From Opitutaceae bacterium (GTDB taxonomy: Bacteria; Verrucomicrobiota; Verrucomicrobiia; Opitutales; Opitutaceae): DNA of 64,000 nt. Positions 8,827-16,450 of the stretch are shown piece by piece. Numbering within the stretch: position 1 is the stretch's first letter; every line of letters begins with the position of its first letter. Below the pieces are notes generated by a model, which did no database searches, was not told the DNA's origin, and saw nothing but the letters and a program-made list of their open reading frames with translations. The position numbers were made by a program, and so were the translations under genes. The stretch is from assembly GCA_018402455.1 (NCBI GenBank), contig JAGYIG010000007.1, positions 51,328-115,327 of the forward strand, read 5' to 3'.

Positions 8827-10708
8827 ATGAAACGTTTTATTCCTCTTCTTGCGCTGGCCGTCGCGCTGGTGGTGGTCGTTCGCGGCGTTCAAATCCGGGC
8901 CCTGACACCCCATTTCGATCTGGTCGCCTGGCGAACTGCTCGTCCTCGCCGACGGCCGGATCGCCGCTTGATACCGTAGGCCGCACCACCCTGATTTTGC
9001 AGGAACGCCAGGCCGTCTACCTTCGAGGATGGAGCAAGCTCACGCCCAACCAATGGCTGCTCGACGCCCTGTTCCGGCCGGAACTGGCCGACACCTACCG
9101 CACGTTCAAGGTGCAGAACTCGAGGCGTTGGCCCTGATCGGCAGACCGATGAGACCTTGAAACGCACCTACGACAGCGCGTTCGCCCGGTTCATGGCCGT
9201 GTTGGGATTTTGCCTTCCGCCACAGCTGCTTCTCCTATGCGCAGCTCGAGCCCCTACTCTCCGAGAGATCGATCGTCAGGGCGAGCTCGCCGCCGAATTT
9301 GAGGCGCCGCAACGCGATCCCTTTCAACGCGCCGTGCTCAAAATCCGCAACCAGGCTGATCATCTATCAACAGCTCAAGCACAGCCTGGCGCCCCCTTAA
9401 AGGACCGGATTTCACCGTCTCCAATCCCTGCAGGACAATTACGCGGGAGGGCACGACGCCGTCCGCGCCCGGTCGCAGGGCGACCCACAACGAAGCGTCG
9501 CTACCGAGATGATCGATGCCGGCCAGCTCTTCTGCGCATGGACCAACTCGCCAGCCTTCCTGCCCTTGCCGCCTCTCGGCGAAGACACTTCGACTACCCA
9601 GTGGCAAAACCGGCGGGCGTTGTTGAGTCCTTCCAAAGTGGCATGGTCAATCCCTACGCGCTCGCCTACGCGGGACTGGACGGGCGGCGCGAGCAATCCC
9701 TCGAGACGTTCAACACCATCATCGAGCCACACGCCCAGTTGAACAGCAAGTTTTCGGAGCAAATGAGCAAAGCGCGCACGGAAAGCGTTTAACCAGCGGC
9801 CCTGTTCACGTCAGCCTCTGTTGTTCTACACCTCGTTTTCTTCCTGGCGATTGCGTCGTGGCTGGTTTGGCCGGAAGCCCTGCAACGGTCGGCCTTTGCT
9901 GTTGAGTCTGGCTTGATCATCACCACCGCCGGCGATCCTCACCCGGATGTGGTTGAGGCGGCCGCCGGTGACCAATCTGTATTCATCCGCTCTTTTTGTC
10001 GGCTGGGGGTGCGTGCTGCTGTGCATTGTGTTGGAGAAGCTCTACCCCAATGCCATCGGCGCCACCGCCGGGGGCATGACGGGCTTCGCCACGATGGTGG
10101 TCGCGCACCAACTGTCCTTGTCCGGCGACACCTTGGAGATGATGCGGGCCGTGCTCGACTCCAACTTCTGGTTGGCGACCCACGTGATCGTGATCACCAT
10201 CGGCTATTCGGCTACCTTCCTCGCCGGTTTTCTCGCCATCATTTACGTCTTCCGTGGGGTGTTCACCAAATCACTGGACCGGGACACGGCGAAAACCATG
10301 GAGCGCATGGTCTACGGTATCGTTTGTTTTGCCACCTTGTTCAGCTTGGTGGGCACGATCCTGGGCGGGATTTGGGCGGACCAGTCCTGGGGACGGTTCT
10401 GGGGCTGGGATCCCAAGGAAAACGGGGCGCTGCTGATTGTATTGTGGAACGCCATCATCCTGCACGCACGTTGGGGCGGACTGGCGCGCACCCGCGGGAT
10501 CATGGCGATGGCGATCTTCGGCAATATCGTGACCAGCTGGAGTTGGTTCGGCACCAACATGCTCGGAGTCGGCCTGCACAGCTACGGTTTCATGGACGCC
10601 GCGTTCAACGCTCTGGTCACCTTCGTGACGGTCAACCTCCTCATTATCGCCCTCGCCTATTTCCCCAGCGGCAAATGGCGCAGCGCATCGAAGCTCAGTC
10701 GGGCTTGA
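8827..10708 (+). CDS. ccsA: CcsA-type cytochrome c assembly protein with N-terminal extension; N-terminal half disrupted by multiple frameshifts
   Basis: MKRFIPLLALAVALVVVV start; fragments LVLADGRIAPLDTVGR-like, EFEAPQRDPFQRAV; intact C-terminal part PVTNLYSSALFVGWG, WGRFWGWDPKENGALLIVLWNAIILHARWGG (WWD motif). Confidence 0.82.
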
Positions 10709-10769: not shown

Positions 10770-11603
10770 TCAAGCCGATTTCGCCGTCGGGAGAATTTCT
10801 GATGAATCCACGGCGACCTCATCGGATTCTTCCTTGGTCGGCATTGGATAGGATTTCACGAACTCACTGAACTCGATGAGCTCCATGTGGCCGTCGTGGT
10901 CCTCCATGATCGCGGTCAGCGATTCCACCCAGTCACCGGAATTGAGGTAGTGCACCTGCCCCAGCATCTTGTCGGCCGGAGTATGAATGTGGCCGCACAT
11001 GACGCCGGTGCAGCCCCGTTGGTTCGCCAGTTGAGCGATGTGATCCTCGAAGTTCGAGACGTGGTTCACCGCTTCCTTTACGCGGGCTTTGATCGCCTTG
11101 CTCAGCGACCAATATTCCTTACCCCGCCAGGTCCGCCAGGCGTTGTAGACTCGGTTGAGCTTGAGCAAGGCCCGGTAACCCCAATCCCCGAGGTGGGCGA
11201 GAAACACAAAGTTCTTGGTCACGGTGTCGAACACGTCGCCATGGAGCACGAGGTAATTCCCCCGCGGGGTCTGGTGCACGTAGTCTTCCACGACGGACAA
11301 TCGGCCAAACTCCAAGGGCATGAAACTGGCGAGCACGTCGTCATGATTGCCCCGGAGATAGACGACTTCGGTATCCCGCTTCTCCAATTTTTTAAGCACG
11401 ATCCGAACAAAGCGGGTGTGGGCCTTGGTCCACTGGCCGGAACGTTTCAGTTGCCAGCCGTCGATGATGTCGCCGTTGAGGATGAGCTTTTCGCAGCGCA
11501 CCCGGCGCAGGAAGTGGTTCACCTGCTCTATTTTGCAATCCGGGGTGCCCAGGTGCACGTCGGAGATGATGACGGTGCGCACATGCAGGTTTTTTTTATC
11601 CAT
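10770..11603 (-). CDS. PlcP-like / UDP-2,3-diacylglucosamine-hydrolase-like metallophosphoesterase
   Basis: HVRTVIISDVHLGTPDCKIEQVNHFLRR, LNGDIIDGWQLKR, VVYLRGNHDDV, LVLHGDVFDTV, VMCGHIHTPADKML, YLNSGDWVESLTAIMED. Last gene of an overlapping operon with two glycosyltransferases. Confidence 0.85.
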   Translation of the reverse strand: MDKKNLHVRTVIISDVHLGTPDCKIEQVNHFLRRVRCEKLILNGDIIDGWQLKRSGQWTKAHTRFVRIVLKKLEKRDTEVVYLRGNHDDVLASFMPLEFGRLSVVEDYVHQTPRGNYLVLHGDVFDTVTKNFVFLAHLGDWGYRALLKLNRVYNAWRTWRGKEYWSLSKAIKARVKEAVNHVSNFEDHIAQLANQRGCTGVMCGHIHTPADKMLGQVHYLNSGDWVESLTAIMEDHDGHMELIEFSEFVKSYPMPTKEESDEVAVDSSEILPTAKSA

Positions 11604-12756
11604 GACGGGGGATCTCGGGTTGAACGGAAGAGAGTGCGGACGAGTCCGCCGGACCATGTCGACGTAAAACGTATCCGGCAATGGCGGCCGCGGCCGCGGG
11701 TTGGGCCAACGCCTGCAGCCGTTGACGCCAGTCTCGCCAGCCGCGACCACCGTCGGCAAAGGCCGTGCGCAGAATCGCGAGAACCTCCGTCGGCGTGTCC
11801 GCCCGCCCCCCGATCCCGTGCCGACGCAACAGTTCGTAGTTGCCCTCCTCTTGGCCGGGGACGATCTGGTTGACGATCATCGGGCAATGCGCGGCGATCG
11901 CCTCCTGCGTGGTGGCCCCGCCCGCCTTGCTGATCACGGCGTGATGGGTCATCAACAATTCCGGGATGCGATCGGTCCAGCCCAACACTTGAAACGGAGC
12001 GGCGCGCCCTTGCGCCGCGTTTTCAATCCGCCGGCGCAGCGCCACATCCCGCCCCACCGCAAAGGTCAGGTCCCAGTCCGTGGCCTCCAGCAATTGGCGG
12101 GCGGTCTCCAGGGCCCGGTGAGCCCCCGAGGTGATAATGAACAGGACTTTCGGTCGCACCGCCGGACCGAGGGGCTGGGTTGACCACGGCAAATTGGTCT
12201 GGGCAAAAATCGGCGCAACCGGAAACCCTTTCACGTGCAATCGATCAGCCGGACACCCCGCCTCGCGGAGCACTTGGGCGGAGTCTTCGTTGGGCAGGAA
12301 CCAACCGTCACATTCGGCCAGCCACCACATGGAGTTAATGCTGATGGAGTCGGTGACCACGTTGTAGGAGGGCACCCGCCAGCCGCGTTCCCGCCCGAGA
12401 AACTCCAACATGAAGGCAAAGACCGGATACGTGCTGCAAATCGCCAGCGGAGACTTATCCCGCAGCACCCCTTCGAGCCACCGAATCTCCGGTTTCAGCA
12501 TCCAAAGGCAGCCGGGCAAGGGACGGGATCGATCGAGCCAGCCATAGAACGCACTCCACAAGCGGGGCGCCCGGTTGATCACCGTGTAGTAGGCCGACCG
12601 CGCCAACCGATCCCGGCGCGGGGAAAGGGTCGCCCAGGGGTCCATCAATTGGGCGGTTCCCCTCCCGCCCAACTGATCAAAAGCCGCTACCAGACTCCGG
12701 GCCGCCGCGTTGTGCCCTTCCCCGTAACTGGCCGTGAAGATCAGGACCGGCTTCAT
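11596..12756 (-). CDS. MGDG-synthase/MurG-like glycosyltransferase (GT28-type)
   Basis: MKPVLIFTASYGEGHNAAARSLVAAF (MGDG synthase N-terminal motif), VVTDSISINSMWW, VLFIITSGAHRALETARQLL, SKAGGATTQEAIAAHCPMIVNQIVPGQEEGN. Confidence 0.85.
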   Translation of the reverse strand: MKPVLIFTASYGEGHNAAARSLVAAFDQLGGRGTAQLMDPWATLSPRRDRLARSAYYTVINRAPRLWSAFYGWLDRSRPLPGCLWMLKPEIRWLEGVLRDKSPLAICSTYPVFAFMLEFLGRERGWRVPSYNVVTDSISINSMWWLAECDGWFLPNEDSAQVLREAGCPADRLHVKGFPVAPIFAQTNLPWSTQPLGPAVRPKVLFIITSGAHRALETARQLLEATDWDLTFAVGRDVALRRRIENAAQGRAAPFQVLGWTDRIPELLMTHHAVISKAGGATTQEAIAAHCPMIVNQIVPGQEEGNYELLRRHGIGGRADTPTEVLAILRTAFADGGRGWRDWRQRLQALAQPAAAAAIAGYVLRRHGPADSSALSSVQPEIPRHG

Positions 12757-13895
12757 GGTCGGGGCGCATGGCCGGCTTCGACCTTCAGATCAGATTCAAA
12801 GCGGCCGATTACTTTATCCCACGACTGTTCTTCAAATCCATGTCGGGCTTGTTTCCCGAGTTGCACCCGCAACGGATCGTTTTCCACCAGCTGCAGGCTT
12901 ACTCGCTCCAGCGTTTCGGGCTCATCGCAGGGCGCCAAGAGGCCGTTCTCCCCGTGGCGGATAAATTGCCGACCCGCCGCGTAGTCGAAACTGGCGACCG
13001 CCAAGCCGCTGGCCATGGCCTCCGTCACCACATTGCCGAAGGTCTCCGTCAGGCTCGCATGAATGTAGATGTCGGCGGAGGCGTAGTAACGTCCGATTTC
13101 CTCCCGGGAATAGAATCCAGCAAAACGGCATTCGGGGTGATCGGCGACCAGTTGTTCGCGCAGCGGGCCATCGCCCGCGAGGACAAACTTGAGCCGGGGA
13201 TCAGCCGCCCGCATGGCGGCGTAGATCTTAAAGAGCAGATCATAGTTCTTTTCCGGCGCCATCCGGCCCACGTGCAACACCACGCGGTCGCCCGGTTTCA
13301 CCCCCCACTCCGCGCGCAATCCGTCACAGCGTTTGGCCGGAGCAAAACACGCCGTATCGATCCCTCGGGAGAGCAGCGTCATGTGGTCGAATCCTTGTTT
13401 GCTCAATTCGGCGCACAGCTCGTCGGTGGGAGCGAAGGTGCGGGCGGTGCGATTGTGCACGCGCCGGAGCCACCCCAGCACTAACCGTTGGAGCGCCGCA
13501 AAACCGTAATTGCCGGTGTAAGCGTGAAAGTTGGTATGAAAACTGGAAGTCACCGGGATGGCGAGCTGACGGGCTACCGTCACCGCCGAGGCCCCCAACG
13601 GGCCTTCGGTCACCACATGGACCAGATCCGGCCGGTGTTGTCGCCACGCCCGACGCAACTTGCCCCATGCCGGCCACCCCAGGCGGAGAAGCGAATATCC
13701 GGGAATGTTCATCCCGGGCATCGGCACCTGCCGATAGTGCAGTTCCGCCTCCGGCGGCGGCAGGTCAGCCCGCTCCGGTCGGTAGATCGTGACCTCGTGC
13801 CCGCGTCGGCCGAGCTCTCGGGCGATGACTCCAAAGGTCATGGCCACTCCATTGACTTCGGGCGGAAAGGTTTCGGAGACGATGGCTATTTTCAC
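12753..13895 (-). CDS. GT4-family glycosyltransferase
   Basis: VKIAIVSETFPPEVNGVAMTFGVIARELGRRGHEV (GTG start), LLSRGIDTACFAP, VVLHVGRMAPEKNYDLL, IYIHASLTETFGNVVTEAMASGLAVASFDYAAGRQFI. Confidence 0.9.
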   Translation of the reverse strand: MKIAIVSETFPPEVNGVAMTFGVIARELGRRGHEVTIYRPERADLPPPEAELHYRQVPMPGMNIPGYSLLRLGWPAWGKLRRAWRQHRPDLVHVVTEGPLGASAVTVARQLAIPVTSSFHTNFHAYTGNYGFAALQRLVLGWLRRVHNRTARTFAPTDELCAELSKQGFDHMTLLSRGIDTACFAPAKRCDGLRAEWGVKPGDRVVLHVGRMAPEKNYDLLFKIYAAMRAADPRLKFVLAGDGPLREQLVADHPECRFAGFYSREEIGRYYASADIYIHASLTETFGNVVTEAMASGLAVASFDYAAGRQFIRHGENGLLAPCDEPETLERVSLQLVENDPLRVQLGKQARHGFEEQSWDKVIGRFESDLKVEAGHAPRP

Positions 13896-14044
13896 ATCCG
13901 TGGGTTTTCCCCACGGGTGACAAACGAAACCCACGCGCGTTACAGTCTGACGGCAAACGGGCGACAGTTGCGTCAACTCCGTCTCCCGCGGGCCAAGGCG
14001 GCCGATAGCATACCAACCCGCGCCCACTCCTGAGCAAACCGCGC

Positions 14045-14069
14045 GGAGATTTTTGCTGCCAAAATCTCC
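14045..14069. repeat. 9-bp inverted repeat GGAGATTTT-N7-AAAATCTCC in a divergent intergenic region
   Basis: Perfect arms 14045-14053 and 14061-14069 between the divergent GT4 and UroD-like genes. Confidence 0.6.
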
Positions 14070-14135
14070 ACCCTGCAGTTCCCCTCCTGCCCGACTGCTG
14101 GGCCCTTCATCTTACCCTTTTACCCGCTCTCCACC

Positions 14136-15512
14136 ATGAATTCCGACAAAAGCCTGCTCCTTCGTGCCCTCCGGGGTGAACCCGTCAACCGCTCCCCGTG
14201 GGTGCCCTTTGTCGGGGTGCACGGCGGCGCCCTCGTGGGGTGTGACGCGACCACCTATCTGCAGGACGCGGATAAAATCGTGGCCGGTCTCACCGCCGCA
14301 GCGGAGCGCTACCAACCGGACGGACTGTCGGTTGTGTTTGACCTGCAGTTGGAGGCCGAGGTGCTGGGTTGCGAGTTGATGTGGGCCCAGGAAACTCCGC
14401 CATCGGTCGCCACCCATCCACTCAATGATGACTATAACCTCGCGGGTCTGCCCCCCTTTTCCGTCGCCGCCGGCAGACTCCCCATCGTGTGGGATGCGGT
14501 GCGTCGGACCAAAGCCGCGATCGGTGAATCAGTCGCCCTCTACGGTTTGCTGACCGGACCCCTCACCCTCGCCCTTCATCTGCGGGGCGACGAGGTGCTC
14601 CTCGACATGTTCGACGAGGCCGATGCGGTGCCTGAGCTGTTGGCCTATGGTGCCTCCATTGCCTGCCAGATGGTCGATGCCTACCTCGAAGCAGGAGCAG
14701 ATGTGATTGCCGTGGTGGATCCCATGATCAGTCAAATCGGCCCCCACCATTTCAATCAGTTTGTGGCCCCCGTGCTGGATCAGATTTTCGATCACATCCG
14801 CGCCCGGGGCGCGATCTCATCGCTGTTCGTTTGTGGCAATGCCAGTCGTAACCTGGAGCCGATGGCCGCCACGCATTGCGACAATATTTCCGTCGATGAA
14901 AACGTGGACCTGAGCCGACTGGCCGAAGTCGCCCGCGCCAGCAAAAAGTCCTTCGGCGGGAACCTGCAGTTGACCGTGGCCCTGTTGCGCGGAGACGCGG
15001 ACGACGTGCGCCGGGATGTCCTGCGCTGCTGGGATCAAGCCGGCGACGCCCCGGGGTTCATTCTGGCTCCGGGCTGTGACCTGCCGTTTGCCGCGCCGCC
15101 CACCAATCTCGAGACCGTGGCGTCTCTGGTCCACGATGCCTATCAACGGGACGTGGCCCGCCAGTTGCCCGACAAGCAGCATCACGACACCTACGACGAC
15201 ATCGCGATCCCTGACTATGCTCGCGCGGCCGAGGTCATCATTGATGTCGTGACGCTGGACTCCGCCGGCTGCGCCCCCTGCGCCTACTTGCTCAAGTCCG
15301 CCCAAGAAGCGGCGCGACGCTTTGACCGCCCCGTGACGGTGCGTGAGCACAAGATCACGGAGCGCGAGGGGCTCGGCTACATGACCAAACTGGGGGTGTC
15401 GGCGATCCCCAGCATCTGTGTCGATGGCCGCGAGGTGTTTGCCTCCATCATTCCCGATCGATCCGACTTGATCGAGGTGCTCAACCAGGCGGCCGACCAA
15501 AAGGTCCGCTAG
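14136..15512 (+). CDS. Uroporphyrinogen decarboxylase (URO-D/MtaA-like) family protein fused to a C-terminal thioredoxin-like domain
   Basis: LLRALRGEPVNRSPWVPFVGVHGG; LTGPLTLALHLRGDEVLLDM; DVIAVVDPMISQIGPHHFNQFVAPVLDQIFDHI; FVCGNASRNLEPMA; ILAPGCDLPFAAPPTNLETV; C-terminal IIDVVTLDSAGCAPCAYLLKSAQEAARRF (CxxC) ... SAIPSICVDGREVF. Confidence 0.85.
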   Translation: MNSDKSLLLRALRGEPVNRSPWVPFVGVHGGALVGCDATTYLQDADKIVAGLTAAAERYQPDGLSVVFDLQLEAEVLGCELMWAQETPPSVATHPLNDDYNLAGLPPFSVAAGRLPIVWDAVRRTKAAIGESVALYGLLTGPLTLALHLRGDEVLLDMFDEADAVPELLAYGASIACQMVDAYLEAGADVIAVVDPMISQIGPHHFNQFVAPVLDQIFDHIRARGAISSLFVCGNASRNLEPMAATHCDNISVDENVDLSRLAEVARASKKSFGGNLQLTVALLRGDADDVRRDVLRCWDQAGDAPGFILAPGCDLPFAAPPTNLETVASLVHDAYQRDVARQLPDKQHHDTYDDIAIPDYARAAEVIIDVVTLDSAGCAPCAYLLKSAQEAARRFDRPVTVREHKITEREGLGYMTKLGVSAIPSICVDGREVFASIIPDRSDLIEVLNQAADQKVR

Positions 15513-15523
15513 GCCGGCCCGCC

Positions 15524-16450
15524 ATGCCCCCCCTCCCCCGCATTCCCGTCACGCTGGTCACCGGATTTCTCGGCAGCGGAAAAACCACCTTTCTGTTGCG
15601 CTTGGCCGAGCAGCATCCGCAGGAACAGATTCTGTTCCTCGTGAATGAATTCGCCCCGGACAACATGGATGGCCTCACGCTGAGCGCGACCGGTCGCCCG
15701 ACCCATTCCGTGGTGGGCGGCAGTCTGTTCTGTGAGTGCAAGGCCGCGGACTTTGTTCGCCTGATGCGGGAGGAGGTGTGCCAGCTCTATGCCGGACAGG
15801 CGATCACCCAAGTGGTCATCGAAACCAGCGGGATTGCCGATCCCTCCGCCATTGGCCGGTTGATGCAGGATCACGGACTCGACGCCCACTTCTCCATCCG
15901 TCGAATCGTCAACATCGTCTCGCCGCTCCGTTTCCCCCAACTTCACGCCAATCTGGCCTCGGTGCAGGCGCAGGTGCTGGCCTGCGATACGATCATCATC
16001 AATCAAACTGACCTGGCTTCAGTGGCCCAAATTGAGCACTGCCGCCAGCTGTTGGCGGCCGCCAATCCCGCGGCGCGCCTGCTCCGCGCCGAACATTGTC
16101 ACCTGCCATTTGCCTTGAACGAGGCGCCGACGCGCCCACCGTTGCCCGACGCTCCGCTCGCCACCGGCGACTCCAATCCCTTCACCACCGCGACGGCGAA
16201 GTTCGATCAGGTCATTGCGACCACCGCCCTGCAGGCGTGGCTGAATCAGCTCCCGACGACGGTCTTGCGGGTGAAAGGCCACGTGGAGACTTCCGAGGGC
16301 TGGCGCGAGGTGCAGCGCACGGTCGGCGGATCCGCCATCACCCCGACGAATCCTCAATCAGAATCGCGGTTGGTCGTGATCACCCATGAGCGGGATCAAG
16401 CCACCCTCGATCAGGAGGTGCGGCAACTCGCGGCGCTGGGGGTGGCGTAA
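15524..16450 (+). CDS. COG0523/CobW-like P-loop GTPase
   Basis: PVTLVTGFLGSGKTTFLLRL (Walker A), VNEFAPDNMDG, SLFCECKAADFV, VVIETSGIADPSAI, IIINQTDLA. Confidence 0.9.
   Translation: MPPLPRIPVTLVTGFLGSGKTTFLLRLAEQHPQEQILFLVNEFAPDNMDGLTLSATGRPTHSVVGGSLFCECKAADFVRLMREEVCQLYAGQAITQVVIETSGIADPSAIGRLMQDHGLDAHFSIRRIVNIVSPLRFPQLHANLASVQAQVLACDTIIINQTDLASVAQIEHCRQLLAAANPAARLLRAEHCHLPFALNEAPTRPPLPDAPLATGDSNPFTTATAKFDQVIATTALQAWLNQLPTTVLRVKGHVETSEGWREVQRTVGGSAITPTNPQSESRLVVITHERDQATLDQEVRQLAALGVA

Follow-up and report, generated by a model that had tools for sequence, protein, structure and literature searches.

A conserved Opitutaceae operon, probably of the PlcP/Agt lipid-remodelling kind, with an added PF06925 glycosyltransferase

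Introduction

Conversion of phospholipids to glycolipids by the phosphoesterase PlcP and the glycosyltransferase Agt has been demonstrated experimentally in several bacteria, and plcP-agt operons are known from P. aeruginosa (PA3219-PA3218), SAR11 HTCC7211 and Methylosinus (PMC8528852, PMC4796936, PMC9239053). PlcP has already been reported in a marine verrucomicrobium, as has plcP beside other glycosyltransferases (PMC4796936), and the verrucomicrobial methanotrophs are without PlcP (PMC9239053). Here we ask whether an operon containing a metallophosphoesterase (MPE) and two glycosyltransferases (GTs) in an Opitutaceae genome is a module of this kind or a part of lipid A, EPS or LPS-core synthesis, and what its second GT might contribute. 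The locus lies in a stretch of 64,000 nucleotides (the window), from a 3.67 Mb genome that is 91% complete and whose nearest relatives are Opitutaceae MAGs.

Organisation of the locus

An earlier note on this DNA described three overlapping genes on the minus strand; their coordinates and overlaps were confirmed from the sequence and its ORFs (Table 1), and the motifs that it quoted for the MPE are present. Alignments of relatives showed the start residue and motifs to be conserved, which includes support for the GTG start of the GT4 gene. The 4-nt GT4/GT28 overlap is found in most Opitutaceae loci, and most loci without an intervening gene have a GT28/MPE overlap of exactly 8 nt, which is identical in L002-L004, L006, L007, L009, L010, L014, L016, L035 and L054. 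Because gene order and overlap lengths recur across most Opitutaceae loci, the overlaps are not due to chance.

Table 1. Features of the window operon, and phosphate genes found near MPE orthologues elsewhere in the phylum
Feature	Position	Strand	Basis
GT4 glycosyltransferase, Agt-like, 380 aa, first gene of the operon	12753..13895	-	PF13439 and PF00534; start codon GTG at 13895, stop codon ends 12753
PF06925/GT28 glycosyltransferase, UgtP/MGD-like, 386 aa	11596..12756	-	PF06925 E 5e-13; aligns with 9wde and 4wyi; ATG at 12756, end at 11596
Calcineurin-like metallophosphoesterase (MPE), PlcP-like, 277 aa	10770..11603	-	PF00149; identities; tree; ATG at 11603, end at 10770
ATGA stop-start overlap, GT4/GT28, 4 nt	12753..12756	-	seen in sequence
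GT28/MPE overlap, 8 nt	11596..11603	-	seen in sequence
Divergent intergenic region, expected site of the operon promoter	13896..14135	.	sequence; Pho box and promoter scans
pstS-pstC-pstA near MPE orthologue	L121		
phoU/pst near MPE orthologue	L109, L133		
pstS near MPE orthologue	L113		
phoU near MPE orthologue	L142		
Pit transporter with DUF47 near MPE orthologue	L108		

Downstream of the operon a convergent ORF ends at 10708, and its translation suggests a role in cytochrome c biogenesis. On the other side, the divergent gene (14136-15512) encodes a protein of the URO-D family whose C-terminal extension (about 100 aa) contains a CAPC motif; it adjoins a gene for a CobW-type GTPase (15524-16450) and is also present in the nearest relative (L117:849-2285).

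The metallophosphoesterase is PlcP-like

If the MPE were this lineage's LpxH, the operon would be part of lipid A synthesis. The two proteins share a fold, databases give such MPE genes the LpxH product name, and the best PDB matches of an AlphaFold model of the MPE were LpxH, although this model was of moderate quality (pLDDT 70) and uninformative on function. We compared the MPE with E. coli LpxH and with reference PlcP genes from S. meliloti and P. aeruginosa that were picked out by their gene neighbours. The S. meliloti gene adjoins genes for an AHL synthase and a LuxR regulator, and we take it to be SMc00171 (PlcP), beside sinI/sinR. The P. aeruginosa gene, a plasmid-borne copy, is followed by an overlapping GT gene and then a cyclase gene; we infer from these neighbours that the plasmid-borne pair matches PA3219-PA3218, the PlcP-Agt1 pair of P. 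aeruginosa (PMC8528852).

The MPE was more similar to the PlcP genes (43% identity for S. meliloti, 48% for P. aeruginosa) than to E. coli LpxH (22%). Against the LpxH models the MPE scored 43 bits (NF003743, cut-off 134) and 21 bits (TIGR01854, cut-off 190); the reference PlcPs scored 38-55 bits and E. coli LpxH 364-389 bits. The dimetal phosphoesterase residues DxH, GD, GNHD, HGD and GHxH are conserved in the alignment, in which GNHD of the MPE stands opposite GNRD of E. coli LpxH. In the phylogeny of 10770-11603 against PlcP and LpxH that the earlier note had proposed (a maximum-likelihood tree of 62 rows), the MPE did not group with LpxH; six LpxHs separated from it and from all the rest at 100/100. 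In addition, the window's genome encodes a full-length LpxI (281 aa, PF06230 E 2e-39), and the LpxH step is therefore already covered. On these sequence grounds (identity, tree split, model scores and the genome's LpxI) the MPE is not LpxH, and a place for the operon in lipid A synthesis is hardly credible.

In the same tree the MPE falls within a 100/100 subclade together with proteins from Opitutales, from Akkermansia-type genomes and from one member of the Bacteroidota (Parabacteroides). This subclade is sister, and adjacent, to the clade holding S. meliloti PlcP, and P. aeruginosa PlcP branches without resolution at the base; to our knowledge the sister subclade has no characterised member. 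The earlier reading of the MPE as a PlcP stands as regards its greater closeness to PlcP than to LpxH; with its placement beside the S. meliloti PlcP clade, the MPE is a putative PlcP in the strict sense.

Nearly all annotated PlcP-type genes in plasmid records are named 'UDP-2,3-diacylglucosamine diphosphatase', some with lipid A GO terms. For these plasmid genes the label is a systematic misnaming.

The two glycosyltransferases

GT28 scored 49.9 bits against PF06925 (gathering score 25) and 140 bits against the diglucosyl-DAG synthase (UgtP) equivalog NF010135, which is under the cut-off of 500 bits; we therefore call it UgtP/MGD-like only. Its alignments to the processive DAG glucosyltransferase 9wde and to MGD1 (4wyi) extend across the GxGH, KAGG and PGQE regions.

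The two top NCBIfam models for GT4 were GlcN-PG synthase and MGlcDAG synthase, which are both lipid glycosyltransferases, with scores far below cut-off. The best model was N-acetylglucosaminyl-PG synthase, at 134 bits for GT4 and 147 bits for a GT4-MPE fusion protein from an Akkermansia-type genome (see below). These matches raise the alternative that GT4 glycosylates phosphatidylglycerol (i.e. is of the GlcN/GlcNAc-PG type) rather than DAG, in which case the operon would make a glycophospholipid as well as GT28 glycolipids and the MPE would turn over PG-type lipids. However, the cut-off of the best model is 480 bits, and P. aeruginosa Agt1, a DAG glucosyltransferase (PMC8528852) with 31% identity to GT4, has the identical two top models. 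The match is non-discriminating because Agt1 shares it, and we regard this alternative as improbable.

GT4 enzymes of the EPS/LPS-core kind are common, and the window's genome has 19 PF13439 matches, so that both GTs might instead serve EPS or LPS-core assembly with the MPE as an unrelated neighbour. In a tree of 42 rows, however, the window GT4 was apart from E. coli WaaG, WaaB, WcaC and WcaI and from most of the GT4s of its own genome; the grouping with lipid A or EPS enzymes that the earlier note had named as grounds for refutation was not seen for GT4 in this tree. The membership of GT28 in PF06925, the conserved clustering of the genes and the GT4-MPE fusion also argue against such a role, which we consider very improbable. 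As for the proposal that GT4 is Agt-like, its domains and its linkage to plcP agree with it, but it groups with GT4s linked to plcP, P. aeruginosa Agt1 among them, at only 87/87, which is moderate, with long branches and with one long-branch row (L163) intruding into the plcP-linked group.

Conservation of the operon and the DAGK-like gene

We examined 80 Opitutaceae loci containing the MPE, several of which are truncated contigs, and found GT28 within 70 of them, GT4 within 69 and a DAGK-like protein within 63. The usual order in the family is GT4-GT28-DAGK-MPE. The DAGK-like gene between GT28 and MPE encodes a YegS/DAGK-type lipid kinase; it is present in most relatives and absent from the window. 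Where GT28 and MPE are some 940 nt apart, the gene is present (e.g. L025), whereas the two directly adjoin in the window and in the relatives nearest to it (L002-L007, L009, L010, L014, L016, L035, L054 and several more). A cultured member of the family, Geminisphaera colitermitum (L027), has the trio. Since ceramide kinases also belong to the DAGK family, a sphingolipid alternative is conceivable.

A census of 100 Opitutaceae genomes gave MPE in 78 and GT28 in 58, with a DAGK gene near the MPE in 38 of the 78. The earlier note had called for a neighbourhood search for triads of GT4, a PF06925 GT and MPE; this search bore out a conserved cluster, GT28 and MPE being at most 2.5 kb apart in 49 of the 56 genomes of the family that have both. 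The genome of the window has one DAGK_cat protein, unlinked to the operon. Two genomes of the same genus as the window (G020 and G064; loci L115 and L116) have GT4-DAGK-MPE without GT28, so that the position between GT4 and MPE is exchangeable within one genus.

GT4-MPE fusion and other loci outside the family

In eight of the nine genomes of one Akkermansia-type genus (f7/g57), GT4 and MPE form a single ORF of about 680-700 aa (L107:1118-3154, L125-L130 and L132). The L107 protein (678 aa) contains GT4 at residues 24-390 (39% identical to the GT4 of the window) and MPE at 411-656 (51% identical to the MPE of the window); both sets of Pfam domains score over cut-off. Fusion of this kind strongly indicates that both enzymes serve one pathway. 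Two further candidates were rejected, L114 with its GT4 in another frame and L131 with no GT4 domain.

Elsewhere, an OlsF-like bifunctional ornithine-lipid synthase (acyltransferase-GNAT) is encoded directly after plcP-GT28 (L110:5876-7693, OlsF match E 2e-115, and L113:380-2260). The window's genome has an OlsF-like gene unlinked to the operon (G000 contig C90, L195:1069-2865). A. muciniphila, whose lipidome has been sampled at several phosphate levels, has ornithine lipids at all of them (PMC9981464). In Parabacteroides distasonis (L097:4977-6898) a PlcP-like MPE, 51% identical to that of the window, overlaps a glycosyltransferase of the MJ1255/VC2487 family, i.e. the MPE has a different partner GT in Bacteroidota.

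Links to phosphate

Of 38 loci (275 kb) from other Verrucomicrobiota, 6 had pst, phoU or pit genes near the MPE orthologue (Table 1), compared with none of 20 control stretches (400 kb) taken from other parts of genomes in that set, a rough control with hand-picked positions. At one of these loci (L121:2434-6434) the PlcP-like gene is directly upstream of pstS-pstC-pstA. Nearly all such neighbours are in the other families of the phylum, and only 2 of the 80 Opitutaceae loci have them; PhoU is encoded in the window's genome. A consensus search found no Pho box in the window or upstream of 67 operons, but it was of little power because three Verrucomicrobiota pst regions also gave no match and the consensus may not apply in this phylum. 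A promoter and terminator scan gave no excess over shuffles. Judging from the neighbours found across the phylum, phosphate control of the window operon is plausible.

An alternative to phosphate-responsive remodelling is that the operon runs the same chemistry at all phosphate levels and serves constitutively to keep glycolipid and DAG in balance; the DAGK-like enzyme would then recycle DAG in the manner of Gram-positive DgkB. The DAGK-like gene in 63 of the 80 Opitutaceae loci would suit such a role, as would the undetected Pho box and the scarcity of phosphate genes around Opitutaceae operons. However, the window itself has no linked DAGK, MPE orthologues stand beside phosphate genes elsewhere in the phylum, and PlcP acts at low phosphate in other bacteria (PMC8528852, PMC4796936). 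We consider homeostasis less likely than remodelling, though a good deal more likely than the other alternatives.

Proposed pathway

Remodelling remains our preferred reading: the operon is probably a PlcP/Agt-type module for converting phospholipids to glycolipids, to which GT28 has been added. In this pathway the dimetal MPE would remove the phospho-headgroup of PE and/or PG to give diacylglycerol (DAG), and GT4 (Agt-like) and GT28 (UgtP/MGD-like) would use UDP-sugars to glycosylate DAG or monoglycosyl-DAG, the products being phosphorus-free glycolipids. Through their overlapping starts and stops the three genes would be coupled in translation, and in most relatives the DAGK-like lipid kinase would phosphorylate surplus DAG to phosphatidic acid. 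We infer the substrate, the products, the order of the two GTs and induction at low phosphate.

Counting for remodelling are the gene order and overlaps, the protein families, the split from LpxH, the genome's LpxI, the conservation of the cluster, the fusion, the phosphate neighbours and the OlsF-like neighbour. Counting against it are the undetected Pho box, the sister-subclade position of the MPE, the 87/87 support for grouping GT4 with Agt, the scarcity of phosphate genes near Opitutaceae loci (2 of 80) and the DAGK-like gene of most relatives, which would use up DAG made by PlcP. This last gene is the main complication, as it is no less compatible with a reversible module, or with DAG homeostasis, than with a one-way switch that saves phosphate. 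The earlier suggestion of a PlcP/Agt-like locus, as opposed to an LpxH or EPS locus, is upheld by identity, tree, LpxI, neighbourhood and fusion; control by phosphate, the strict identity of the MPE as a PlcP, the lipid products and a split of mono- and processive di-glycosyl-DAG synthesis between the two GTs stay putative.

More tentatively, Verrucomicrobiota and some Bacteroidota may possess a second, uncharacterised PlcP subfamily that is hard-wired to a sugar enzyme. It might take the form of a translationally coupled GT4-GT28-(DAGK)-PlcP operon in Opitutaceae, from which DAG could go into glycolipid or be returned to phosphatidic acid, and of one bifunctional protein of about 680-700 aa in Akkermansia-type genomes, which could convert phospholipid to glycolipid without release of DAG.

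Comparison with known systems

The open-licence literature yielded no description of a GT4-GT28-(DAGK)-PlcP operon, of PlcP with a UgtP/MGDG synthase or with a DAG kinase, or of a GT4-PlcP fusion, in line with the earlier note, whose author had not seen the trio described. The locus is real and conserved and the type of pathway is known; what appears new against the literature searched is the three-gene arrangement with a second GT, together with the GT4-MPE fusion. PlcP/Agt remodelling, worked out mainly in Proteobacteria, would thereby extend to Verrucomicrobiota, where the set of genes differs (PF06925 and GT4, often with a lipid kinase). The results also suggest that the genes to which Verrucomicrobiota annotations routinely give the name 'UDP-2,3-diacylglucosamine diphosphatase' do not encode enzymes of lipid A synthesis. 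Given the fusion in Akkermansia-type genomes, the pathway may be testable in a cultured human-gut bacterium.

The window MPE shares with LpxH the calcineurin-like fold, the metal ligands and the common database name, but differs from it in sequence (22% identity), in having GNHD rather than GNRD, in its 100/100 separation in the tree and in occurring in a genome with LpxI. Like the processive DAG glucosyltransferase UgtP/YpfP and MGD1, the window GT28 spans PF06925 and a C-terminal donor domain with conserved motifs, although it is below the UgtP equivalog cut-off and has other partner genes. In a further set of loci (types 3 and 5) plcP lies beside Pgt-type (GT21) processive glycosyltransferases (PMC4796936); there, and putatively in the window, plcP adjoins a glycosyltransferase of the di-glycosyl kind, but the enzyme is of another family (GT21), and the Pannonibacter-type locus (L106) is without GT4. 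The window differs from the plcP-agt operons in its reversed order, with GT4 first and the phosphoesterase last, in its extra PF06925 GT (and, in relatives, often a DAGK-like gene), in the sister-subclade position of its MPE and in the absence of a detected Pho box. It resembles them in combining a PlcP-type phosphoesterase, 48% identical to the P. aeruginosa protein, and a GT4, 31% identical to Agt1, in one operon.
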